A DNA stretch of 64,000 nt from Natronogracilivirga saccharolytica (lineage in GTDB: Bacteria > Bacteroidota > Rhodothermia > Balneolales > Natronogracilivirgulaceae): the NCBI RefSeq assembly GCF_017921895.1, contig NZ_JAFIDN010000001.1:1-64000 (forward strand). Direction: 5' to 3'. The translations under genes and the position numbers were made by a program. Positions within the stretch are counted from its first letter, which is position 1. The number at the start of each line of letters is the position of its first letter. Under the pieces are notes generated by a model. It had not been told where the DNA came from. It did not search any database and saw nothing but the letters and a program-made list of their open reading frames with translations. Below, in pieces: positions 49,397 to 64,000 of this stretch.

Positions 49397-50713
49397 ATGA
49401 ATCTATTCTATTTGACCCGAATACTTACAATTGCAATCATATTTACATTTCTCACAACTGAGCCGGTATCAGGCGCAGGTTTATCACATCCGCCAGAACC
49501 CATACCGGTTACACTGGAACAGGATGAAGAAGGCAATTACAAAGTCGTTCGGGACGGAGAACCCTACTTCATAAAAGGAGCCGGCGGATCTTCGCGGCTT
49601 GATTTGCTGGTGGAATCAGGAGGAAACTCCATCCGGACCTGGAGTACATCTGATGCAGACAGCATCCTTGATGAAGCCCATAAACGGGGATTAACCGTAA
49701 TGCTTGGAATCTGGCTTGAACATGAACGGCATGGGTTTGACTACGATGATGAGGAATCAGTGGCACGTCAAAAAGAAGAAGTGCGTAAAAAAATATTGCG
49801 GTACAAGGACCATCCTGCCCTTCTTGCCTGGGGACTGGGAAACGAGGTGGATCTGATGTACACCAACACCAGGGTATGGCATGCCGTTGAGGATATCGCC
49901 CGGATGGTTAAAGAACTGGATCCAAATCATCTTGTCACCACTGTCACAGCCGGCATCGACAAGGAAAAGGCAGCATTGATCATGGAAAAAGTACCTTCAA
50001 TCGATTTTTTGAGCATTAATACGTATGGAGGACTCGATGATCTTCCGGAACGTATCCGGGAAATCGGCTGGGATGGTGCCTATGCAGTGACCGAATGGGG
50101 TCCCACCGGACACTGGGAAATTGATCAGACCGAATGGGAGGTTCCTGTTGAACAAACCAGTACAGAGAAATCGGAAGTCTACCGTTCACGATACCGGGAA
50201 GGTATTATGGCCGACCCTGAGCAGTGCATAGGATCCTACACTTTTCTCTGGGGGCAAAAACAGGAAACCACCCCCACATGGTACGGTCTTTTCCTTGAAA
50301 CCGGCGAAATAACCGAAGTGGTGGATGCCATGCACTATAATTGGACCGGTGAATGGCCTGAGGAACGTGCACCTTCTATACTTTCCTTTACAATCGAAGG
50401 CATGTCAGCGCACGATAATGTCTACCTTGCTCCCGGAGAAACGTATGAGGCAACTGTTGAGGGAACCCATCCGCATGATGCATCCTTTGAGATTAGCTGG
50501 GAGTTTTTGCCCGAAAGTACAGATATCGGAGCCGGAGGTGATCCGGAAGAACGGCCGGAGACGATTCACGGACTGATAAAAGAACAACATGGTAACACCA
50601 TTGTTTTTCAAGCTCCTGAAAAACAAGGCCCATACCGCCTTTTCACATATCTTGTCACTGAAGAAAACAGGGCGGCTGTCGCAAATATTCCTTTTTTTGT
50701 CGGAGACAAATGA
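49397..50713 (+). CDS. Secreted TIM-barrel glycoside hydrolase
   Basis: A 438-residue exported enzyme. After a signal peptide (about 1-26) comes a (beta/alpha)8 domain of the GH2/GH5 clan kind: FIKGAGGSSRLDLLVESGGNSIRTW, then Glu150 in AWGLGNEVD as the likely acid/base and Glu233 in AVTEWGP as the likely nucleophile. A beta-sandwich of about 110 residues ends the protein. The exact CAZy family is not clear to me. It has no sorting domain for type IX secretion, so it probably stays periplasmic. The symporter and LacI genes downstream suggest that it trims imported glucan fragments. Confidence 0.8.
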   Translation: MNLFYLTRILTIAIIFTFLTTEPVSGAGLSHPPEPIPVTLEQDEEGNYKVVRDGEPYFIKGAGGSSRLDLLVESGGNSIRTWSTSDADSILDEAHKRGLTVMLGIWLEHERHGFDYDDEESVARQKEEVRKKILRYKDHPALLAWGLGNEVDLMYTNTRVWHAVEDIARMVKELDPNHLVTTVTAGIDKEKAALIMEKVPSIDFLSINTYGGLDDLPERIREIGWDGAYAVTEWGPTGHWEIDQTEWEVPVEQTSTEKSEVYRSRYREGIMADPEQCIGSYTFLWGQKQETTPTWYGLFLETGEITEVVDAMHYNWTGEWPEERAPSILSFTIEGMSAHDNVYLAPGETYEATVEGTHPHDASFEISWEFLPESTDIGAGGDPEERPETIHGLIKEQHGNTIVFQAPEKQGPYRLFTYLVTEENRAAVANIPFFVGDK

Positions 50714-50914: not shown

Positions 50915-52543
50915 GTGGCTTCTCAAATAGGCATTCTTGATCTGATTATTGTACTTGCCTTTGTTGGCTATATTTGCTGGCGTGGATTCACTGCCTCCAG
51001 GAATCAGAAATCACCTGCGGACTTTTTTCTTGCCAGCAGATCCCTGACCTGGCCCCTTATCGGTATTTCTCTTTACGCATCGAACATGTCCAGCAGCAGT
51101 CTGATAGGACTGTCCAGCAGTGGCTATGAAAACGGGATCTACGTTTACAATTACGAGTGGATGGGGATCATCCTGCTGGTCATTTTTGCCATTTATTTTG
51201 TCCCACTCTACTTAAGGGCAAAACTGTATACCATGCCTGAGCTTCTGGAGAAGCGGTTTGATTTCAGGTCCCGTTATTATTTCTCAACCCTGAGCATACT
51301 GGTTAATATTGGCATTGACACTGCCGGAGCGCTTTACGCAGGAGGAATCCTCATTCAAATCTTGTTTCCCGTGGTGGATATGGGAACCGCTATTCTGATT
51401 ATTGCCATCTCTGCAGGGATGTACACCATTGCCGGCGGACTCAGAGCCGTTGTTTTCACTGATGTACTGCAAGGTATACTGCTTACTGTCGGTTCACTGA
51501 TACTTACCATAATTCTTTTTAACCATATCGGCTCATGGGAGGCCATTAAAGAAGCAGCTCATCCGGATTCATTTAACCTCATCAGAAGCCGGGACGATAA
51601 GGTGCTTCCCTGGCCGGCGCTGATTCTGGGATTACCCCTCTTGAGTTTTTATTTCTGGTGCACCAATCAGCACATAGTACAGCGTGTCCTGGGAGCGCGT
51701 TCCATAGATGACGGCCGAAAAGGAGCCATATTTGCAGGATTTCTTAAAGTTCCCGTGCTTTTTATCATGATTTTTCCCGGCATCATGGCCTTGTCCATTT
51801 ATCCTGAGCTTGACAATCCCAATATGGTGATGCCTCAGTTGATGCTGGATTTTCTTCCTGCCGGCATTCTCGGTTTGGTTCTTGCAGGATTTCTTGCCGC
51901 GTTGATGTCCAGCATCGATTCTGCACTGAACTCCGCTTCAACACTGCTTACAATGGATTTTTATAAAAAAATCCGGCCCAGGTCAGACCAAAAAGAACTG
52001 GTCCGGATTGGCAGGATTTTTACATTGCTGTTTGTTCTTATTGCCTCTTTATGGGCACCTTATATTGACCGTTTCCCGACATTGTGGGAATATTTGCAGG
52101 CGGCACTTTCCTACCTGATCCCGCCTGTTGTGGTTTGTTTCCTGTTCGGATTGTACTGGAAACGTGCCACACCTTTGGCAGCCTTCATGTCCCTGATTGT
52201 CGGCGGCTTATCCGCTTTAATTATCATGTTGCTTCATGCTCTGGCGCTGATACCTTACATTCATTTTCTGTATGTAGCTGCCATTCTGTTTGGCCTCAGT
52301 TCCCTGACCATGATTATTACAAGCCTGATTGACAAACATCCGGGATTAAGTGAAAGCTTTGCAGATCAGTTCCGTGCGCAGACCGAAGAAGAATCATCAC
52401 AGACTCCCAGTTCTGATGAAGAAAACAAAACCACAGACATCAAAACTGATACCAGCGTTTCAGGATCCGCTTACATGGATTATCGTTTTTATGCTGCTGT
52501 TCTGATGATACTGACTACAGGTGTTGTAATATGGTTCTGGTAA
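50915..52543 (+). CDS. SGLT-like sodium/sugar symporter
   Basis: A 542-residue SSS-family transporter with about 14 spans. ASNMSSSSLIGLSSSGYENG, TIAGGLRAVVFTDVLQG, FWCTNQHIVQRVLGAR and LAALMSSIDSALNSASTLLTMD are the SGLT blocks, the last holding the sodium-site Ser residues. The start is a GTG at 50915; an ATG at 50887 is in another frame. A polar loop (about 485-515) precedes the last span. It likely imports glucose or short glucosides freed by the hydrolases. It lies between hydrolase and LacI, 201 bases after the former. Confidence 0.92.
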   Translation: MASQIGILDLIIVLAFVGYICWRGFTASRNQKSPADFFLASRSLTWPLIGISLYASNMSSSSLIGLSSSGYENGIYVYNYEWMGIILLVIFAIYFVPLYLRAKLYTMPELLEKRFDFRSRYYFSTLSILVNIGIDTAGALYAGGILIQILFPVVDMGTAILIIAISAGMYTIAGGLRAVVFTDVLQGILLTVGSLILTIILFNHIGSWEAIKEAAHPDSFNLIRSRDDKVLPWPALILGLPLLSFYFWCTNQHIVQRVLGARSIDDGRKGAIFAGFLKVPVLFIMIFPGIMALSIYPELDNPNMVMPQLMLDFLPAGILGLVLAGFLAALMSSIDSALNSASTLLTMDFYKKIRPRSDQKELVRIGRIFTLLFVLIASLWAPYIDRFPTLWEYLQAALSYLIPPVVVCFLFGLYWKRATPLAAFMSLIVGGLSALIIMLLHALALIPYIHFLYVAAILFGLSSLTMIITSLIDKHPGLSESFADQFRAQTEEESSQTPSSDEENKTTDIKTDTSVSGSAYMDYRFYAAVLMILTTGVVIWFW

Positions 52544-52718: not shown

Positions 52719-53738
52719 ATGAAAGTAACCTTAAAAGACATTGCCCGGGAAACGGGCTATTCCATATCAACAATCTCACGGGTTTTAAGCAATGTTGGCA
52801 AAATAAGTCCAAAAGCAAGGGATGAAATAATTCAGGCTGCCAAGAGATTAAACTATCCCGTATCGCGTATCGCAGGGCAAGATATTCCGGGGAAACAGCA
52901 GAATATTGCTTTGGTAACGGATTTTCATGAAGGCGAGTTTTATGCTTCCTACTATTACGGAATCGACAGAGCTGCTGCGGAAGAAAAGGTTCGTATTGCC
53001 TTGCTGAATGTAGCCGAGCCTCGCAAGAATATTAAGAAGTTCATGTCGGATCTTATTGCCGAAAAATATTTTGATGGAGCGATCATTTTCATACCGGAAT
53101 TGATCCGTCAGGATTATGAGGATCTTATGAAAATAATCCCGGACCATTTTCACGTGGTTTCCAATGCAATGATCGAAAATCCCTTGCTTGCAACCATCAC
53201 CTTTGACGGATACAGCGGCGGACACCAGGCTGCCAGACTTTTTCATGAAGCCGGTTATCAAAATGTTGGCATTGTTAAAGGCCCTGCAAGGAAAGCAGAA
53301 AGCAGGTTCCGGTACAACGGATTCAATGATTTCGTCTCAAGCGTTCCTGAGATGAATCTGGTCTGGGAATGCGACGGAAATTTTGAATTCAACTCCGGTG
53401 TCCAAAGCTTTTATGACCTGGTGGAGAGCGGAAATAAACCGGAAGCAATTTTTATTTGCAACGATTTGATGGCTTCCGCATTTATCGATACCGCGGTGGC
53501 CAATAATGTCCGTATCCCGGATGACATTGCCATTCTGGGCTACGATGATCTGCCCATGTGCCGGAATAATAACCCGACTATTTCCTCTGTCCGCACTGAT
53601 TTTAAACAATTGGGTACTGCCAGTATCCGGTCTTTAAAAAACCGGCATCCAAAAGAAGGTCAGCAGCATGGAGTTCTGAGCCTCATACCGGTATCAATTG
53701 TTGAAAGAGAATCTATTTCAACTAAAATTGAAGTGTGA
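52719..53738 (+). CDS. LacI-family transcriptional regulator
   Basis: A 339-residue repressor. The N-terminal helix-turn-helix is VTLKDIARETGYSISTISR, with the hinge near 45-60, followed by a periplasmic-binding-protein fold with IALVTDFHEGEFYASYYYGI, HQAARLFHEAGYQNVGIVKG, AIFICNDLMASAFID and DIAILGYDDLPM. It probably senses a sugar from glucan breakdown and controls the neighbouring hydrolase and symporter genes. The frame ends at 53738. Confidence 0.95.
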   Translation: MKVTLKDIARETGYSISTISRVLSNVGKISPKARDEIIQAAKRLNYPVSRIAGQDIPGKQQNIALVTDFHEGEFYASYYYGIDRAAAEEKVRIALLNVAEPRKNIKKFMSDLIAEKYFDGAIIFIPELIRQDYEDLMKIIPDHFHVVSNAMIENPLLATITFDGYSGGHQAARLFHEAGYQNVGIVKGPARKAESRFRYNGFNDFVSSVPEMNLVWECDGNFEFNSGVQSFYDLVESGNKPEAIFICNDLMASAFIDTAVANNVRIPDDIAILGYDDLPMCRNNNPTISSVRTDFKQLGTASIRSLKNRHPKEGQQHGVLSLIPVSIVERESISTKIEV

Positions 53739-54025: not shown

Positions 54026-54991
54026 TTATTTGACAAGTGTAAGGTTGCGAGTCAACACTTTATCTCCAACCTGGAGTCTGTAAATGTATACACCACTGCT
54101 GAGATTGGACGCATCAAACGTAACCGTGTGCTGACCGGCTGACATATGACCGTCTTCCAAAGTTGCAACCTGCTGACCAAGCATATTGTATACTTCCAGT
54201 GTAACTTGGGATGCTTCCGGCAACGCAAAATCAATTTGTGTTGTCGGGTTGAACGGGTTCGGATAGTTCTGGCTCAGTTGAAGTGTTTCAGGCTTTTCTG
54301 AACCAACCAGTTCGCTGCTGGTGTCGTCAACCTTCACCAGTTGGAAATCATCCAGGAAAAACGTATGGTCTGGTCCACCACCAGGTGTTAGCATTTCACC
54401 ATCTTCATCTACAAAGTCAACAAATAAAACAACTTTAAAATAGGGAGCTTCCTCAACTCCTAATTCTTCCAGGTTCCATTCCGCTTCTACCCATTCTTCG
54501 CTTACTCCTCCGGGTATGGGAATGTGCAAATCACCGGTATCAAAACCGTCACCCTCAAGCTTCACCGTAATTTGTACGTCTTCCCGCGGTGACCAGACTT
54601 TTGCTCTGAAGATATAGTCCTGCACCTCGCCTACTTCCATAGGTTCGTCAAGGTCATACCAGAATCCAGCCCATGGCTGTCCACCATCCGTTCTTTCATA
54701 TTGCAAAACATAATCAGACTCATTCACACCTGACTTGTCCGGGTTCTCAATTCTTTCCAGTGCGGCACCTTCAAAAGGCATAAATGTAACCTGCAGCGTG
54801 TCGTCCGCGTCCCGTTCGCCCCATGGGAAATCATCATCCATATTGAAAGTATACGGGAAAGTGATAAGGTGAAATTCTTCTTCTTCTTCCGGTGCTGGTA
54901 TCACCTGCGCACCTGCATTACTGAACATATACATCGGTATAAGCAACCCGATAAACAGGCACTTAAATAGAACAGTATTTATTTTACTCAT
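54026..54991 (-). CDS. Secreted single-module protein with type IX sorting domain
   Basis: A 321-residue exported protein: signal peptide 1-28, a beta-sandwich module at about 43-220, and a C-terminal sorting domain from about 240 starting QNYPNPFNPTT and ending RNLTLVK. The module shares ENPDKSGVNESDYV, WAGF, KVWSPREDVQITVK and the final FFLDDFQL strand with the modules of the 59530 and 61903 proteins. It has no catalytic domain, so glycan binding at the cell surface is the likely role. It is transcribed alone and has its own terminator. Confidence 0.82.
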   Translation of the reverse strand: MSKINTVLFKCLFIGLLIPMYMFSNAGAQVIPAPEEEEEFHLITFPYTFNMDDDFPWGERDADDTLQVTFMPFEGAALERIENPDKSGVNESDYVLQYERTDGGQPWAGFWYDLDEPMEVGEVQDYIFRAKVWSPREDVQITVKLEGDGFDTGDLHIPIPGGVSEEWVEAEWNLEELGVEEAPYFKVVLFVDFVDEDGEMLTPGGGPDHTFFLDDFQLVKVDDTSSELVGSEKPETLQLSQNYPNPFNPTTQIDFALPEASQVTLEVYNMLGQQVATLEDGHMSAGQHTVTFDASNLSSGVYIYRLQVGDKVLTRNLTLVK

Positions 54992-55497: not shown

Positions 55498-56619
55498 ATG
55501 AGCAATAATAAAACTTCTTCATCTCCACTTCTTGTGATCGTAGCATTGTTTTTTCTGACTCCCTTATCGTCATTAGCACAGGACTGGCAGTTGGTCTGGA
55601 CTGATGAATTTGAAACCCAGGATCTTGACACAACAAAATGGGAATACATGTACGGAACAGGTTCCATGTACGGTCTAAACAGATGGGGTAATTACGAAGA
55701 ACAGTATTACACCGACCGTGAAGAGAACATCTTTGTTGAAGATGGTAACCTTCATATTGTTGCCCGTGAGGAAAACCGTGGTGGGATGAATTATACCTCA
55801 GCTCGAATCCGGAGCAAGGGCAAGGCCGATTTTCGATATGGAAAGTTTGAAATCCGGGCAAAACTACCGGAGGGTCAAGGACTGTGGCCTGCCATCTGGA
55901 TGCTGCCAACAGAAGAAGTTTATGGTGAGTGGCCTCAAAGCGGAGAGATCGATATAATGGAACTGATTGGTCACGAACCTGATGTTGTTCATGGTACTGT
56001 TCATTACGGTCCTCCTTGGCCCGACAATCAAAGCAGAGGTCATTACTATACCCTGAGTGAGGGAAAGTTCAGTGATGATTTTCACGTTTTTACTATTGAG
56101 TGGATGCCGGATCGAATCACCTGGTACGTGGATGATAATTTCTTCACGTTTGTGACACCAAGCAATTTAGAACCCCATAACTGGCCATTTGATGAGAAAT
56201 TCCATCTCTTGTTGAATGTGGCGGTCGGCGGAATATGGCCTGGCAGCCCCGACGGAACAACCGAGTTTCCCCAGGAAATGATTGTTGATTGGATTCGTGT
56301 GTATCAGGATGCCGAGTTGACATCATCAGAAGCTGATGACCTGCAGGATATACCCTCACGTTTTGCATTGCACCAAAATCATCCTAATCCATTCAACCCG
56401 ACGACCAATATTTCGTTTGATCTTCCTGAAGCCGAACATGTGAATATCCGGGTCTATGATATGCTTGGACGTCAGGTAGCCGTAGCTGCTAATGACAATT
56501 TCCAGGCGGGTAATCACACCATTTCATTTGATGCAAGTTCTCTGAGTTCCGGCACCTACATTTACCGAATAGTTACCGACTCTTATCAGCAGTCACGCAC
56601 GATGCAGTTGATCAAGTAG
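55498..56619 (+). CDS. GH16 endo-beta-1,3-glucanase (laminarinase-like) with type IX sorting domain
   Basis: A 373-residue enzyme. Signal peptide 1-27, GH16 domain about 29-275, sorting domain from about 294 (NHPNPFNPTT, ending TMQLIK). The catalytic motif GEIDIMELIGH gives Glu150 (nucleophile), Asp152 and Glu155 (acid/base). The Met inserted in the ExDxxE form is that of laminarinases and related beta-1,3-glucanases. WDWIRVYQ-like VDWIRVYQDAE ends the fold. It is probably cell-surface-attached or released. It is more than 60 percent identical by eye to the GH16 part of the 59530 protein. Confidence 0.94.
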   Translation: MSNNKTSSSPLLVIVALFFLTPLSSLAQDWQLVWTDEFETQDLDTTKWEYMYGTGSMYGLNRWGNYEEQYYTDREENIFVEDGNLHIVAREENRGGMNYTSARIRSKGKADFRYGKFEIRAKLPEGQGLWPAIWMLPTEEVYGEWPQSGEIDIMELIGHEPDVVHGTVHYGPPWPDNQSRGHYYTLSEGKFSDDFHVFTIEWMPDRITWYVDDNFFTFVTPSNLEPHNWPFDEKFHLLLNVAVGGIWPGSPDGTTEFPQEMIVDWIRVYQDAELTSSEADDLQDIPSRFALHQNHPNPFNPTTNISFDLPEAEHVNIRVYDMLGRQVAVAANDNFQAGNHTISFDASSLSSGTYIYRIVTDSYQQSRTMQLIK

Positions 56620-56631
56620 TCAGTATCACTG

Positions 56632-56654
56632 ATAAAAGTCGATTCGACTTTTAT
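56632..56654 (+). terminator. Hairpin terminator after the GH16 gene
   Basis: ATAAAAGTCGA and TCGACTTTTAT form a perfect 11-bp inverted repeat around one base, 13 bases after the stop codon. The right arm supplies a TTTTAT tail. Confidence 0.7.
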
Positions 56655-56899
56655 TCCTTCTTGTGTAATGACTATACACCGTGTTGCCTTTGAACTGGCG
56701 ATTATAACATATAAAATGCCCATAACCGGGCATGTGACCGGACACACAAGTGCATAATTACATCTGGACATGGCATTTTGCTTAAGCGATTCACCGAGCA
56801 TTTGTCGATGTAAATCCAAAAAAATTATAAACAGATGTAATTAAAGCACCCTCATCAGCCACAGAAACTTCAGTAAATTCGCTTAAGAATACTATTATT

Positions 56900-59491
56900 A
56901 TGCGACTGCAAATTTTGCCTCTTTTACTTTTATCGGTATTCATTCCATTTAATAGCAAGGCTGAAACTCCTACGAATCCACCGGAGTTTTCACATCCTGC
57001 AGGCACCTATGAAAACCCTTTCGGACTTGAACTTTCCGCCCATGAGGATGCCACGGTTTATTACACTACAAACGGTGAAGTGCCAACGGAGACCTCCAAT
57101 GAATTCCAGCCCGGAGATCCCGTCCATATATCGGGATCGGTGATGGTGCGTGCCCGGGCCTTTCGTGAAGGTTATGATCCAAGCAAACCTGTAACCAAAG
57201 TGTTCACACAGCTACATCAGAATATCGCAGATTTCGATTCCAATTTACCGCTGGTTGTCGTCAATCAGTTCGATGACGTCATGCATCCGGAAGGTTTGCA
57301 CCGGAGTACCATCTATTTTTCCGTTATAGACCTCGATGATGATGGAAGAGCCCGGCTGCTGTCGGACGAACTCCACCTTCACAGTCGCTCAGAATCCAAC
57401 TACCGGGGTACAAGCTCACTCACCTTCCCCAAAAAACAATTCGGAGTGCGGCTGATCGATGAGCAGGATGAAAACCGGAACGAACCCATTCTGGGCCTGC
57501 CGTCTGAAAACAACTGGATCATGCATGCCCCCTGGGATGATCGTACCCTGATCCGTAATGCCGTTGCCTTTCAGCTGAGCAGCGACATGGGCCGTTATGC
57601 TCCCCGAACCCGTTTTGTAGAACTGTTTCTTCATGAAGGAGACGGGCCGGTAACAGAAGATCACTACCATGGTGTTTATATGCTTCTCGAACGGATCAAA
57701 TGGGACGACAACCGCGTCGACATCGAAAAAATCACCCCGGAGGACAATTCCGAACCGGAAATATCCGGCGGCTATATCATCAACTTTGACCGTGATATCC
57801 ATATCCGAAGCACCAGCAGAAATACAGGCTTTGCCCTGGTACGCCCGCAGGACTGGGATATCACTTCCCAGCAGCGCAGCTGGATCGAACAGTATCTCGG
57901 TGATCTGGAAAACGCCCTGTTTGGTGCTAACTTCCGGGATCCTGATGACGGCTATGCGGCGTATCTTGATCCCGAATCCTTCATAGATCACCATCTGATC
58001 ACCGAAACGCTCAAGGAAATGGACGGATATCGTCTGAGCACCTATCTGTATAAAGACCGCGGCGAACGTCTTGTTATGGGACCGGTCTGGGATTACAACC
58101 TCAGCCTGGGCAACTACACGACTACCGAGGGATGGAACGGACATGATCCGACCGGATGGTACTATACCCATGTTGACCCTGAAGATCAATATCTCAACGG
58201 CTGGTACACCCGGCTGTTCCAGGATCCTGATTTTGAAGAGCGCTACCGGGAGCGATGGTGGGAGCTGCGACAGGGAGCTTTTTCCTCTGATCACATTGTC
58301 AATATGATTCATGACTATGTCGACAAGCTTGATGAAGCCATAGACCGTAATTTTGAGCGATGGGACATCCTGGGTGATGATGTCTGGGAGTGGAGCCGCG
58401 ACGGGTTTGACACCTATGAAGAGGAAATTGACTACATGGTCAACTGGATTGAAACCCGGCTTGAATGGATCGACACCCAGATGGGAGAACCTCCGGCTGA
58501 CTTGTCCGATGAGACACAGCTGCGGTACTTCTGGTACTTTGGTGACAAAATGCTCAATAACACGCCTTTTGAAACTATCGATGCCTCATTTTCACTTGTG
58601 GACAATGCGCGTATCCGGTTTCATTCCGCTCTTGACGGATATCCGTTCCACGAAGACCACGACCTTTGGCGCAAGGCTTCCATGGAAAGGCGCAATCAAC
58701 CCACTGACATCAACTACCGGGAGAAAGGTAACGAAGGCAGACCATTCAACTGGAACGCCATGCGGGCTTTGCAGGTGCGCCAGCCATTCCGTGGGGATGC
58801 CGGTGAAAACACAATGATATTCGAACTCCCGACTACGGGAATGGATAGTCCCGTTTTCCGCTTTGCCGCCATGGATGAAGGAGCCGCCGAGGAACTGGTT
58901 ATAGATTATTCCGTTGCGGATCAGTCGGGACTGAATAAGACTGATTCTGATGCGGATTCGTCAAACCGGACAACCGGTGAACCTGAGTGGACGACAGAAG
59001 GAATCGGCGACGGCCGGTTCTCTTTGGGACAGGAGTATCAGGAATACAAAGTGGATTTCAGAGGCATCGAAAGTGTAACTGACAACCCCGACTTTAAAGT
59101 AAGAATCCGTTTTGACGGAGATATTATAGATGATGACCGGGGCAACCGGGTCACATTCAATAATTTCAGCTTTGAAGATGACGACAGCGAACCGGTTTCA
59201 GCCTCGTATGATGATGAGCAGAAACCCGGGACAGTCCGGCTTGAACAGAACTATCCCAATCCATTCAACTCTACAACAGTTATCCGGTATCATCTGCCGG
59301 AAAGCGGTAATGTCACACTTGATGTTTACGATGTTCTGGGGCAGCGGGTGAAGACTCTTGTTAACGAACAGCTTGCTGCCGGCAGTCATGAAGTCACACT
59401 GGATGCCGGCAGACTTTCCAGCGGCGTCTATCTGTACCGGCTTGAAGCTGGCTCCGGAAGCATTACAAAATCCATGCTTCTGGTAAAGTAA
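56900..59491 (+). CDS. Secreted CotH-kinase family protein with chitobiase-like and type IX sorting domains
   Basis: An 863-residue exported protein. Signal peptide 1-21; a chitobiase/hexosaminidase C-terminal-like domain at about 27-105 (ATVYYTTNGEVPT); the CotH kinase domain at about 110-535, with RGTSSLTFPKKQFGVRL, DRTLIRNAVAFQL, YHGVYMLLERIKWD, MDGYRLSTYLYKD and GPVWDYNLSLGN; a beta-rich region to about 770; and a sorting domain (QNYPNPFNSTT to KSMLLVK). CotH proteins phosphorylate proteins in spore coats and are found in secreted bacterial enzymes, but the target here is unknown. It lies between two GH16 genes. Confidence 0.9.
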   Translation: MRLQILPLLLLSVFIPFNSKAETPTNPPEFSHPAGTYENPFGLELSAHEDATVYYTTNGEVPTETSNEFQPGDPVHISGSVMVRARAFREGYDPSKPVTKVFTQLHQNIADFDSNLPLVVVNQFDDVMHPEGLHRSTIYFSVIDLDDDGRARLLSDELHLHSRSESNYRGTSSLTFPKKQFGVRLIDEQDENRNEPILGLPSENNWIMHAPWDDRTLIRNAVAFQLSSDMGRYAPRTRFVELFLHEGDGPVTEDHYHGVYMLLERIKWDDNRVDIEKITPEDNSEPEISGGYIINFDRDIHIRSTSRNTGFALVRPQDWDITSQQRSWIEQYLGDLENALFGANFRDPDDGYAAYLDPESFIDHHLITETLKEMDGYRLSTYLYKDRGERLVMGPVWDYNLSLGNYTTTEGWNGHDPTGWYYTHVDPEDQYLNGWYTRLFQDPDFEERYRERWWELRQGAFSSDHIVNMIHDYVDKLDEAIDRNFERWDILGDDVWEWSRDGFDTYEEEIDYMVNWIETRLEWIDTQMGEPPADLSDETQLRYFWYFGDKMLNNTPFETIDASFSLVDNARIRFHSALDGYPFHEDHDLWRKASMERRNQPTDINYREKGNEGRPFNWNAMRALQVRQPFRGDAGENTMIFELPTTGMDSPVFRFAAMDEGAAEELVIDYSVADQSGLNKTDSDADSSNRTTGEPEWTTEGIGDGRFSLGQEYQEYKVDFRGIESVTDNPDFKVRIRFDGDIIDDDRGNRVTFNNFSFEDDDSEPVSASYDDEQKPGTVRLEQNYPNPFNSTTVIRYHLPESGNVTLDVYDVLGQRVKTLVNEQLAAGSHEVTLDAGRLSSGVYLYRLEAGSGSITKSMLLVK

Positions 59492-59516: not shown

Positions 59517-59550
59517 CAAATGATGCTGGTTATTTAACCAGCATCATTTG
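59517..59550. terminator. Long inverted repeat at the convergent ends of the CotH and GH16 genes
   Basis: Two perfect 16-bp arms (59517-59532, starting CAAATGATGCTGG, and 59535-59550) flank a TT centre. The right arm encodes the last codons (MMLV) of the minus-strand GH16 gene, whose stop is at 59530-59532. It can end transcription from both sides, though no long T-run follows. Confidence 0.6.
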
Positions 59551-61677
59551 ACGGGATTTCACATAATCTCCGGCACGAAGTCTGTAAATATAGGTTCCGC
59601 TGGACAGTTCCGTGGCATCGAATGTGACATTATGCTGCCCTGAAGGCAAATTTTCGTTCTTCAGTACAGTGACCTGCTGACCGAGCAGATTATAAACACT
59701 GAGTTTTGCATGGGCTGTCCCGGGTAGTGAAAAAGATATGGTAGTGGTTGGATTAAACGGATTGGGATAATTTTGGCCGAGCTCTACACCTTGCGGGGTG
59801 TCATCCTCAAAATCACCGGCTGAAGTTTCACGCTCTACGGCTGATACATCCAACTGATCAAAATACCAGGTATGGTTTTCACTACCATCACCGATCTGTC
59901 CGTCCTGTAAATCAAAAATGAGGGTAATCAGGTCCCATTCGGTATCAAATCCTGCACCACTCATATCCCAGGTCAATTCTTCCCACTCATTGCTGGTCGT
60001 GGTCGGCTCCGCCATTTCGAACTCCTCATCACCTGCCTGCTGTTCCATTTTCATCACTACAGGAGCACCTTCCCGGGGAGACCATACTTTCATGGATATG
60101 GTGTGGTTTTCGGGATCAAAAGTGAAGGAGTGATCAAGGTGCATGAAAGCCCCGCCCCAGAAGGCGCCGCCATCCTTGACCATTTTACCTACGCGCCCGC
60201 TGTCATTTACATCATCGGTAGCGGGATTTTCGACCACACTGGCCTGACCACCGTCAAACCCGAAGAAAGCAAGGTGCCAGGGGAAATCGGGATCTTCGAA
60301 ATCTAGCGGCAGTGAAACAGGCACAAGATCATCCGGAGACTCCGGTCCATCCGGAAGCTCATCATCGTCTTCTGCAGCGGTGATGGAAAGATTGTTGAAA
60401 TACCATGTGAAGTTGTCACTGCCATCTCCTGTTTGTCCTTCCATATCATCAAACACCAGGGAGATAACATCCCATGCCTCGTCATAACCGGCATCGCTCA
60501 TGTCCCACGTAAGCACTTCCCACTGATCGCTTGTTTCTGTAGATACTGTGGCTTCAAATGTGGCATTACCATTGGACTGGCCGGTACGGATGGTCACGGG
60601 CACATTTTCGCGTGGTGACCAGACCTTCATTGTGACCTGGTTGTTATTTTGATCAAAAGTAAACGGAGTTGTCAGCATAAATTCCGATCCGCCCAGATGC
60701 GAACCACCGTCCTTGACCATTTTACCTACCCGCTCGCTGTCATTCACATCATCGGGTGCGGGGTTATCCACAACGGAAAAGTTGCCGCCGTCGAAGTCTC
60801 TGAAGGCTTCGCTCCAGTTAACCGACTGGTCATCAAAATTGACCGGAAGTGTCACAAGTGTATCGGCATCGGCATCCTGATACACCCTGACATAATCGAC
60901 GATCATTTCCTGGGGAAACTGGGTAGTATGGTCCGGATATCCGGGCCAGTTACCTCCAACGGCGACATTCAGGATCATGTGGAATCTCTGGTCAAAGGGC
61001 GCTGGAAAATCGTGCCCCTGGGTGTACCAGTCATCCTGTGTCTGGTAATGCTCCCCGTCGACATACCAGCGCATTTCACCATGCTCCCATTCAAGGGTGA
61101 ATGTGTAAAAATCATCATGAAATGTGCCTTCGTCAAGCTGGTAATAATCACCGGTATGCACATTATCGGGCCATCCGCCCCCATAATGCAGGGTGCCATG
61201 AACTTTGTCGGGCTCATGACCGAGGTATTCCATAATGTCGATTTCGCCGCTGGCAGCCCATCCGCCATAGACATCATCGGTAGGCATCATCCATATGGCC
61301 GGCCATATCCCCTGTCCGACGGGCATTTTGGCACGAATTTCAAAACGTCCGTACCGCCAGTCACCCTTATTGATGGTTCGGATCCGGGCTGAGGTATAAT
61401 CCATTCCGCCATAATTTTCTTCGCGGGCGACAATGTGGAGTTTTCCGTCTTCAACAAAAATGTTCTTTTCCCGGTCGGTGTAGTATTGTGACTCATTGTT
61501 GCCCCATCCGGTGAGTCCTTCGGCTGCTCCGGTTCCATATTGATAAGACCACTTTGACTCGTCCAGTTCTTCACCGTCAAACTCATCGGACCAGACGAGT
61601 TCCCAGTTCTGGGCGTGGAGATTGCCGGAAATAAATCCTATTAGAAAAATGCATAAAAAAATCCTGAGAAATGACAT
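59530..61677 (-). CDS. GH16 glucanase with two binding-like modules and type IX sorting domain
   Basis: A 715-residue exported enzyme. Signal peptide 1-22; GH16 domain about 24-270 with GEIDIMEYLGHE, giving Glu145, Asp147 and Glu150; module 1 about 277-435; module 2 about 455-612; sorting domain from about 635 (QNYPNPFNPTT, ending RQMMLVK). Both modules share NPAxDDVNDS, RVGKMVKDGG, KVWSPRE and the final WYFxxL strand, and are about half identical by eye. The modules probably bind beta-glucan and raise the enzyme's grip on insoluble chains. It is transcribed in the same direction as the 61903 and susD genes but after its own gap. Confidence 0.93.
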   Translation of the reverse strand: MSFLRIFLCIFLIGFISGNLHAQNWELVWSDEFDGEELDESKWSYQYGTGAAEGLTGWGNNESQYYTDREKNIFVEDGKLHIVAREENYGGMDYTSARIRTINKGDWRYGRFEIRAKMPVGQGIWPAIWMMPTDDVYGGWAASGEIDIMEYLGHEPDKVHGTLHYGGGWPDNVHTGDYYQLDEGTFHDDFYTFTLEWEHGEMRWYVDGEHYQTQDDWYTQGHDFPAPFDQRFHMILNVAVGGNWPGYPDHTTQFPQEMIVDYVRVYQDADADTLVTLPVNFDDQSVNWSEAFRDFDGGNFSVVDNPAPDDVNDSERVGKMVKDGGSHLGGSEFMLTTPFTFDQNNNQVTMKVWSPRENVPVTIRTGQSNGNATFEATVSTETSDQWEVLTWDMSDAGYDEAWDVISLVFDDMEGQTGDGSDNFTWYFNNLSITAAEDDDELPDGPESPDDLVPVSLPLDFEDPDFPWHLAFFGFDGGQASVVENPATDDVNDSGRVGKMVKDGGAFWGGAFMHLDHSFTFDPENHTISMKVWSPREGAPVVMKMEQQAGDEEFEMAEPTTTSNEWEELTWDMSGAGFDTEWDLITLIFDLQDGQIGDGSENHTWYFDQLDVSAVERETSAGDFEDDTPQGVELGQNYPNPFNPTTTISFSLPGTAHAKLSVYNLLGQQVTVLKNENLPSGQHNVTFDATELSSGTYIYRLRAGDYVKSRQMMLVK

Positions 61678-61902: not shown

Positions 61903-63390
61903 TTACTTCACAAACATCATCTTTTTTGTCTGTGAAAATGAGCCTGCCTGAAGGCGGTAAATGTACACGCCACTGGCGAGGTCATTGGCATCAAATGATG
62001 CGGTATATTGCCCGGGCTGGTGTGTGCCACTGGCGAGAACAGCGATACGCTGGCCCATCAGATTGAATACTTCAAGCGTAACCTCAGACTGCTCCGGGAC
62101 TTCATACCGGATTTGTGTCTCCGGATTGAACGGGTTCGGGTAATTCTGCTCGAGATTAAATGCCGCCGGTGTAAGGTCACCGGATTCATCAATGCTGGTA
62201 GGCTGATATTCTACGTTTACTTCCAGGTCATCAAAATACCAGGTTGAACTTTCGCCACCGTCTCCTACACCACTTTCCTGGAAATCGAAAATCAAGGTTA
62301 CCACATCCCATTCGGTTTCAAAACCGGCACCGGACATATCCCAGATCATCTCCTCCCATTCTTGACTTTTTGTGGTATTACCGACGACTTCATATTCGGC
62401 CTCGCCATCCTGCTGTTCAACTTTCATCAATATGGGAACATCTTCTCTGGGTGACCAGACTTTCATGGATATGGCAGGGGCATTTTCATCTATGGTAAAA
62501 CTTTCATCAATATGTGTGAATGCACCTGCCCAGAAAGGTCCGGCACCTTTAATCATTTTTCCTACCCAGTCACTGCTGTTGCGGTCTGACTGATCGGGAT
62601 TTTCCACGCGCTCGACAAATCCTCCTTCAAATCCAAAAAAGGCGAAATTCCAGTTGTAATCCTCATCTTCAAAATCAAGCGGCAGTGTTACAGGATGCAA
62701 ATCCTCCGGATTAGCAGGGCCTTCGGGTCTTTCGGCATCCGGGTCAGCTGCATTGACTTCAAGATTGTCGAAGTACCAGGTCCAGTCCTCGCCGCCATCT
62801 CCGTCCTGGCCTTCATCGAAGTCAAATATCATGGTAATCTGATCCCAGTCATGAAGTACATTGGCGCCGCTGTATTCCCATGTCAATGTTTCCCACTCTC
62901 CGCTGGTTGAAGTCACTGCAAAAGCATCAACCTCGTTTTCACCATCGAACTGCTCGACTTTCAAATTGATCCCGACATTACTGCGGGGTGACCAGACGTC
63001 CATACTGATGGTATAATTTTCATCATCAAAATAGAATGGTTCGTCTACAAGAAAGAATGCTCCTGCCCAGTAGATTACAGCATCCTTTACCATGCGTCCT
63101 ACATAGTCGCTGTCGTTATCTTCATCTTTGTGCGGATTTTCAATGACATCCACGTGGGCGCCTTCAAAGCCCAGAAATACATTATCCCAGTTGATATCCT
63201 GATCTTCGAAATCAAGAGGCAGTGATACGGGGGTCAGGTCCGGTTCGGGTTCATCATCAACGGTGTCGGCAATGACGACGCCATCCGGTCCTGCAGAATT
63301 TGATTCAGATACATTATTAGTGGTCTGTGCGAACAAACCTGATACGGGCAGTAAGGCTGCAATTATTACGGTAAAAATAAAACGATACAT
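61903..63390 (-). CDS. Secreted two-module protein with type IX sorting domain, probable surface glycan-binding protein
   Basis: A 495-residue exported protein without a catalytic domain. Signal peptide 1-22 (ending LFAQ), modules at about 56-212 and 235-391, sorting domain from about 413 (QNYPNPFNPET, ending KKMMFVK). Both modules have the PLDFED, ENP, WAGAF, VWSPR, KVEQ and TWYFDxLEV blocks of the GH16 modules. AGAGGA at 12 bases before the ATG at 63390 fixes the start; the frame is open to 63516 but that part runs through the susD terminator. Position directly after susD suggests the SGBP role that SusE/SusF-type proteins fill in other glycan loci. Confidence 0.88.
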   Translation of the reverse strand: MYRFIFTVIIAALLPVSGLFAQTTNNVSESNSAGPDGVVIADTVDDEPEPDLTPVSLPLDFEDQDINWDNVFLGFEGAHVDVIENPHKDEDNDSDYVGRMVKDAVIYWAGAFFLVDEPFYFDDENYTISMDVWSPRSNVGINLKVEQFDGENEVDAFAVTSTSGEWETLTWEYSGANVLHDWDQITMIFDFDEGQDGDGGEDWTWYFDNLEVNAADPDAERPEGPANPEDLHPVTLPLDFEDEDYNWNFAFFGFEGGFVERVENPDQSDRNSSDWVGKMIKGAGPFWAGAFTHIDESFTIDENAPAISMKVWSPREDVPILMKVEQQDGEAEYEVVGNTTKSQEWEEMIWDMSGAGFETEWDVVTLIFDFQESGVGDGGESSTWYFDDLEVNVEYQPTSIDESGDLTPAAFNLEQNYPNPFNPETQIRYEVPEQSEVTLEVFNLMGQRIAVLASGTHQPGQYTASFDANDLASGVYIYRLQAGSFSQTKKMMFVK

Positions 63391-63471
63391 TAGTAATCCT
63401 CTAAAAATAGTAATTTTTGTTGATGTATGAATAGTTTTGTCCGGGGAAAGATTGCATGCCTTCCGGTGAAC

Positions 63472-63519
63472 AAAAAAAGATCCCTGTGACCCCGGGAAAT
63501 ATTTCCCGGGGGTCACAGG
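63472..63519 (-). terminator. Strong hairpin terminator between susD and the 61903 gene
   Basis: Arms at 63483-63499 (CCTGTGACCCCGGGAAA) and 63502-63519 pair over 17 bases with one bulged G, and a TTTTTTT run follows on the minus strand. It starts 13 bases after the susD stop. Confidence 0.93.
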
Positions 63520-63532
63520 TTAGTCAATTGAA

Positions 63533-64000
63533 TCAGTAGCCGGGGTTCTGCTCAAGTGTTCGGTCCGAAAGGTTGATTTCGGATTGTGGAATCGGCAGCA
63601 AACCCAGCCGTTCGGTCCGAAATTCAATCCGGATGTCACCGTCGGCACGTGCATTAATTGTTTCCGCGGCGGTATCCAGACCCATCCTGAGAAGATCCCA
63701 GTACCTTTTTCCTTCACCGGCAAACTCCAGTCTTCTCTCTTCCATGATGTTCTCACGATTGACCGGAATTTGTTCGAAGTCATCGCCGTAAGCCCTCATT
63801 CTGACCTGATCGAAGTAGTTCTGGGCATCGGATGCTCCGAGTTCAGCGGCCATGAGAAGAACATCCGCAAAACGGATAACCGGACGGTTGTAAGGCCAGT
63901 TGAATTCTAGATTGACGGATGGGAGGTCAGCACGACGAGGATAAAACTTCTTGAACGCGAATCCACGCCATTGATGCATTCCGTCTGCGTCGTGATTTAC
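63533..64000 (-). CDS. SusD/RagB-family outer-membrane glycan-binding lipoprotein, C-terminal part
   Basis: The last 155 residues of a SusD-like protein; the gene continues past the right edge, where the frame is still open. NRPVIRFADVLLMAAELG is the SusD helix, DQVRMRAYG and ENIMEERRLEFAGEGKRYWDLLRMG are the hallmark C-terminal blocks, and RLGLLPIPQSEINLS with LEQNPGY ends the family fold. SusD caps a TonB-dependent porin (SusC) that imports oligosaccharides. SusC is expected just outside the window. This makes the 54026-64000 stretch part of a polysaccharide utilisation locus. Confidence 0.95.
   Translation of the reverse strand, partial: VNHDADGMHQWRGFAFKKFYPRRADLPSVNLEFNWPYNRPVIRFADVLLMAAELGASDAQNYFDQVRMRAYGDDFEQIPVNRENIMEERRLEFAGEGKRYWDLLRMGLDTAAETINARADGDIRIEFRTERLGLLPIPQSEINLSDRTLEQNPGY

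Follow-up and report, generated by a model that had tools for sequence, protein, structure and literature searches.

CotH proteins have now been met outside the cell in cellulosomes, in a pel operon and in SusCD loci, without a known task in these settings. The window (the whole stretch of 64,000 nucleotides of DNA that was analysed) contains a compact, conserved locus in which a CotH gene has a fixed partner, a GH16 gene just upstream, and this makes it a place to ask whether the target of CotH is the enzymes, the glycans or neither. The explanation that we favour, for which we consider the chances about even, is that a T9SS-exported accessory CotH kinase acts on a glucan-degrading surface layer.

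The CotH gene and its locus

The features of the locus and of the CotH protein are listed below, with the source of each assignment in parentheses.

49397..50713, + strand: Glyco_hydro_2_C-type TIM-barrel protein (Pfam)
50915..52543, + strand: sodium/solute symporter (Pfam, TIGR profiles)
52719..53738, + strand: LacI-family regulator (Pfam)
54026..54991, - strand: T9SS protein with one Pfam-less domain, labelled CBMlike1 here (Pfam scan)
55498..56619, + strand: laminarinase-like GH16 with T9SS tail, just upstream of CotH and codirectional with it (Pfam)
56631..56655, + strand: terminator-like hairpin just 3' of the upstream GH16 (such sites occur at chance number in the region)
56900..59491, + strand: CotH-domain protein, the main feature (ORF, Pfam, structure model)
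56900..56965, + strand: Sec signal peptide, residues about 1-22 (sequence judged by eye)
56996..57196, + strand: CHB_HEX_C_1 / Fn3_assoc (chitobiase-like) domain, residues 33-99 (Pfam, E 1.8e-12)
57242..58489, + strand: CotH kinase fold, residues 115-530 (match to 5jd9, Z 27.7, rmsd 2.9, 332 residues aligned)
58022..58024, + strand: Asp375 (counterpart in B. cereus CotH: the Asp of NFDGFV)
58091..58093, + strand: Asp398 of WDYN (counterpart in B. cereus CotH: WDYD)
58514..59188, + strand: CBM4/CBM22/MAM-like jelly-roll domain, residues 539-763 (predicted structure; missed by Pfam)
59252..59473, + strand: T9SS type A sorting domain, Por_Secre_tail, residues 785-858 (Pfam, E 5.9e-11)
59530..61677, - strand: second GH16 gene, convergent with CotH; its product has additional domains and a T9SS tail (Pfam)
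61903..63516, - strand: T9SS protein with two such Pfam-less domains, labelled CBMlike2 here (Pfam scan)
63533..64000, - strand: SusD, cut by the window end and whole in L011:1533-3077 (Pfam)

The CotH ORF encodes 863 amino acids, and its coordinates were confirmed exactly. The Pfam domain PF08757 covers residues 168-524 (E 3.1e-55), with 188.4 bits against a curated cut-off of 23.8 and with profile positions 3-322 of 322 represented, and TIGR04183 matches with 48.5 bits against a cut-off of 23. The initial annotation, which had described a CotH domain with a type IX export signal between two GH16 genes, thus agrees with the ORF, Pfam and TIGR04183 results. Both marks of a T9SS cargo, a signal peptide (by eye) and a type A C-terminal domain, are present, and we infer that the protein would be exported via Sec and the type IX system and then be held at the surface or released.

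Genes for SusC, GH3 and GH1 lie just beyond the window, past SusD, and the EIDIME motif is kept in both GH16 proteins of the window. The locus is a beta-glucan utilization locus (PUL), and since GH16, GH3, GH1 and SusCD occur together, its gene content points to laminarin as the probable substrate. By eye, a Pfam-less domain of about 150 residues is apparently common to the proteins at 61903-63516 and 54026-54991 and to the C-terminal part of that at 59530-61677; it is probably a glycan-binding module.

A LacI operator shared by CotH and the rest of the locus was sought, and none was found upstream of CotH. In the window, CotH and GH16b are each preceded by a palindrome centred on CCGG that was not found in relatives, and ATTGCA half-sites occur upstream of other locus genes, with none upstream of the window CotH. 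Promoter-like and terminator-like sites in the region were at chance number.

Recurrence of CotH in beta-glucan loci

Profile searches for CotH, GH16 and SusD covered 40 genomes, among them that of the window, and gave 189 CotH matches (sum of the table). The pair count used 152 CotH rows (150 listed of these 189, plus two own-genome rows), all 50 GH16 rows and 131 SusD rows, the weakest and unlisted SusD rows being left out. Only six of the 152 CotH rows, in six genomes, lie within 8 kb of GH16. Within this distance 11 CotH-GH16 pairs were observed against 1.03 expected under uniform placement, an expectation that ignores kinship and gene clustering.

In nine loci, counting that of the window, a CotH protein of the same subfamily has GH16 and/or SusD/SusC as neighbours. 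Locus L102 (genome G007) shows the window order without the symporter, that is LacI, GH2-like, CBM-like, GH16, CotH, GH16, CBM-like, SusD and SusC, and in a different family L103 and L104 present SusCD, GH16, CotH and GH16, a gene set found rearranged in L024/L105. The remaining arrangements are SusD-CotH (L022), GH16-CotH (L029 and L025) and SusC-SusD-CotH (L059). Contigs that carry two numbers, taken to be identical from their equal lengths and content, were counted once (L105=L024, L106=L029, L107=L022, L115=L023, L116=L026, L117=L030, L118=L028, L121=L027). In all six loci read for order, GH16 precedes CotH in the same direction, with gaps of 280 (window), 156 (L102), 110 (L103), 89 (L104), 25 (L105) and 9 bp (L106). 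Of the 11 contigs on which SusD lies close to GH16, five have CotH. Loci read without it are L108, which otherwise matches closely, and the further SusCD-GH16 loci L109, L110 and L111.

The tree of CotH proteins requires two label changes for the nine PUL-linked members, against 7.9 in shuffles, none of 500 of which was as low. A single group with full support unites seven of them with the window, and a group of ten rows holds all nine plus a copy that belongs to a CotH cluster and is not PUL-linked; the PUL-linked CotHs are nearly one clade. The identities of CotH and SusD are correlated (r 0.94; the 15 pairs come from six loci and are not independent). Profile A3 was built from seven PUL CotH proteins, whose top scores are thus by construction; among 128 genomes covering the order it found no further full-length member near these seven (next score 1453.9 against 1608.9 bits), and two contig-cut rows correspond, by place and length, to the L029 and L059 genes. 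The lack of a repeated link between CotH and glycan loci had been named beforehand as something that would refute the idea. The idea withstands this check, as the nine loci, the pair counts and the tree agree on such a link.

These data indicate that CotH is a conserved accessory of the beta-glucan PUL, and an optional one, as six of the 11 SusD-GH16 loci lack it. One alternative is that one of many T9SS CotH genes landed in a glucan locus by chance and was then co-inherited. It draws on the abundance of such genes (13 matches in the window's own genome, 189 in the 40 genomes together), on the minority that lies near GH16 and on the CotH-less loci. Against it, the position beside GH16/SusCD is held in both family f1 and family f4, f3 adds another GH16-CotH contig, and the PUL CotHs are nearly one clade under purifying selection. 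We regard such a chance origin as distinctly improbable, and it is highly probable that CotH truly belongs to the glucan locus in function. Its recurring pairing with the locus suggests that extracellular phosphorylation may aid sugar degradation.

Pairings of CotH with glycan genes were also seen outside this subfamily. In KSB1 (L100) the genes that come after a T9SS CotH are a symporter gene, a GH16-like one and a TonB-receptor-like one (neighbours assigned by phmmer score and by eye), apparently a separate case. Another sister CotH (L121) lies near a GH2 beta-galactosidase, and the one at L118:1327-8217 lies between two GH120 insertion-domain proteins. Around other sister CotHs the same kind of neighbourhood, not related to glycans, was seen repeatedly by eye: it has a transporter-like gene and in some cases a dihydrolipoamide-dehydrogenase-like gene.

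Predicted kinase fold and conserved residues

The AlphaFold2 model of the protein (mean pLDDT 88.3) ranked 5jd9 and 5jda, the B. cereus CotH kinase, at the top with Z of 27.7 and 27.1; the next structural match (Z 12.3) falls on another domain. The model covers 332 of the 358 residues of 5jd9, and on this basis the CotH protein is predicted to have the fold of the solved CotH kinase. When the protein itself was compared with solved structures by phmmer, no useful match emerged; profiles A1 and A2 do find 5jd9.

Both candidate catalytic Asp residues are kept in the profile alignment to 5jd9. Asp375 and Asp398 are separated by 23 residues, matching D228/D251 of B. subtilis CotH, of which we take D251 to be the second acidic residue. 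Excerpts of PMC7821199 describe the D228Q form of the B. subtilis protein as catalytically inactive. Two positions differ from the Bacillus enzymes: Ser380, five residues after the first Asp, replaces the catalytic-loop Asn of 5JD9, and the second Asp of the Bacillus WDYD is Asn400. The family motifs that had been described as seemingly kept lie at residues 214-220 (DRTLIRN), 375-380 (DGYRLS) and 394-405 (the third motif); the acidic catalytic residues are indeed kept.

Asp375, Ser380, Asp398, Asn400, Glu264 and Arg272 are invariant in 56 of 56 aligned relatives (alignment A1), the invariance of Asp398-Asn400 being inflated since MGPVWDYN was a search pattern for these relatives. Little or no variation is seen across phyla at Asp375, Glu264, Arg272 and Lys178. 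Among 12 aligned CotHs of the same genome, which were found by profile, the Asp398 position is kept in all and the first Asp is gone in two. The CotH domain is under strong purifying selection, with dN/dS of about 0.075 (0.070/0.928) and 0.047 (0.054/1.14) in two pairs.

The kinase explanation is favoured by the fold, the kept Asp residues, the GH16-CotH order, the pair excess, the clade, the correlation with SusD, the low dN/dS and the KSB1 case. It is weakened by the Ser380 and WDYN changes, the CotH-less loci, the missing shared operator and the few CotH rows near GH16; the want of an obvious ATP source outside the cell also counts against it. A kinase step is plausible from sequence and model, yet unproven, and we would put an active kinase at a little short of an even chance.

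The main rival is a dead kinase fold that serves as scaffold or adhesin, CotH binding surface proteins or substrate and the jelly roll binding glycan, with no phosphate moved. The Asn-to-Ser and Asp-to-Asn changes relative to Bacillus CotH, the missing external ATP and the presence of a jelly roll would all suit it. So would published views of cellulosomal CotH proteins, for which excerpts of PMC12484212 mention proposed structural or kinase roles; in excerpts of PMC8665504, CotH accounts for about one fifth of the dockerin proteins of five anaerobic fungi and is speculated to bind the plant cell wall. The near-invariance of Asp375, Glu264, Arg272 and Lys178 and the strong purifying selection are not obviously needed by a pure scaffold, and we consider the inactive protein unlikely.

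Accessory domains and proposed role

The chitobiase-like domain had been put forward as a special sugar binder. It is present in eight of nine other own-genome CotH proteins scanned (in the ninth, the ORF begins only within the CotH domain) and in six of six Planctomycetota/Acidobacteria relatives scanned. As the domain is frequent in CotH proteins regardless of what lies next to them, we rejected it as a specific sugar-binding signature, and since most CotH proteins scanned carry it, its hint of sugar binding is weak.

Residues 539-763 gave no Pfam match at E up to 1. In the whole model this region forms a jelly roll whose best match is CBM4-2 of a Rhodothermus xylanase (Z 12.3, 160 of 167 residues). 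Folded alone (mean pLDDT 84.8), it matches the meprin MAM domain (Z 12.1) and CBM4-2 (2y6j; Z 12.0, rmsd 3.3, 159 of 167 residues) in a tie, followed by CBM22, CBM29 and others; the fold shows no ligand. The jelly roll is also found in sister CotHs outside glucan loci (A4). From its predicted fold it is a possible glycan-binding domain and a better sugar-binding candidate than the chitobiase-like domain. The Ser/Thr-rich loop at residues 679-691 was considered as an autophosphorylation site and set aside, as it is largely an insert of the window protein and is absent or shorter in the six A3 orthologues.

A jelly roll of the CBM4/CBM22 kind would also suit a surface glycan kinase, in which CotH would phosphorylate glucan or oligosaccharides before uptake, and not protein. 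Secretory sugar kinases exist in animals (FAM20B, POMK), which counts for this possibility, as does the recurrent company of glycan genes, including GH120-type proteins (L118) and the S. intermedius pel genes (excerpts of PMC12345266). On the other side, the locus has no gene that we noticed as one for phospho-sugars, and Bacillus CotH acts on Ser-rich protein repeats according to PMC7821199; we find a glycan substrate very improbable.

In the protein kinase reading, CotH would be an optional Balneolales accessory protein of a laminarin-type beta-glucan locus. The jelly roll may act as a tether to glucan or partner proteins, and the atypical CotH-type kinase domain would most likely move phosphate from ATP to Ser/Thr of surface neighbours. 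Candidate acceptors are the glucanases, the CBM-like proteins or CotH itself, and phosphorylation would modulate how the glucan-degrading layer assembles or how stable it is.

Comparison with known CotH systems

A 2016 PNAS paper is said to deal with CotH kinases, and ATP hydrolysis was reportedly observed for a fungal cellulosomal CotH by Lillington in 2023. The Bacillus spore-coat kinase (PF08757; 5JD9/5JDA) shares the kinase fold and the two Asp with our protein, which differs in being T9SS-secreted, in its extra N- and C-terminal domains, in the Ser for the catalytic-loop Asn and in having no spore coat. The cellulosomal CotHs of clostridia and anaerobic fungi are, like our protein, extracellular and part of a glycan-degrading machine, but they are anchored by dockerin, whereas our protein has a T9SS tail and a SusCD-type locus. 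Among them, in excerpts of the sources, are CseP (Cthe_0044) of C. thermocellum, listed beside Cel9N (Cthe_0043) (PMC6083626), and CotH modules of Acetivibrio dockerin proteins (PMC3413522). Two relatives outside Balneolales also carry dockerin-like domains: the CotH of a Planctomycetota bin (L052:8900-12565) and, with a dockerin match just below the cut-off and a weak cohesin match, that of an Acidobacteria bin (L063:8321-14263).

The secreted CotH of Streptococcus intermedius (SIR_1594, pel operon) influences Pel according to excerpts of PMC12345266. It is likewise secreted and tied to a polysaccharide locus, one for exopolysaccharide synthesis and not degradation. In many Firmicutes contigs (L088-L101) the ORFs after CotH are about 700, 370 and 467 aa long, an arrangement similar to that described for this pel operon.

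Laminarin/beta-1,3-glucan PULs of Bacteroidota share SusCD, GH16, GH3 and CBM-like surface proteins with our locus, which differs in having CotH. In the literature on CotH with PULs, SusD/laminarin or T9SS, we found no report, among the matches listed, of CotH in SusCD loci or laminarin PULs. The initial annotation had called extracellular protein phosphorylation within a glycan-degrading system unusual; the case is less unusual than that, and since cellulosomal CotH is already known, our protein represents a familiar theme in a PUL/T9SS version. A broader view, which we hold to be rather doubtful, is that Balneolales run surface phosphorylation by a dedicated T9SS-exported CotH kinase within a SusCD-type beta-glucan locus, perhaps with ATP leaked with laminarin from lysed algae, and that the same principle may underlie cellulosomal CotH.

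Other CotH genes of the genome

Gene lists around the other CotHs of the genome (stretches of 12-20 kb) are mostly housekeeping, as judged by eye from protein starts, with few run against Pfam. By motif pattern, the profile-found CotHs are of two types: the YRG/RNA/DGYRLS/GPVWDYN pattern is common to the window protein and one close paralogue (C2:293447), and the remaining ones show IHGG, RDA or similar, and DxD. The CotH gene at L021:7429-12193 (contig C17) is split in two by two opposite-strand ORFs resembling a transposase pair, which is presumably ISAon1-like. The CotH gene at L014:8117-15733 (contig C15) is followed by three Asn/Gln-rich repeat ORFs that are, by eye, curlin-subunit-like.
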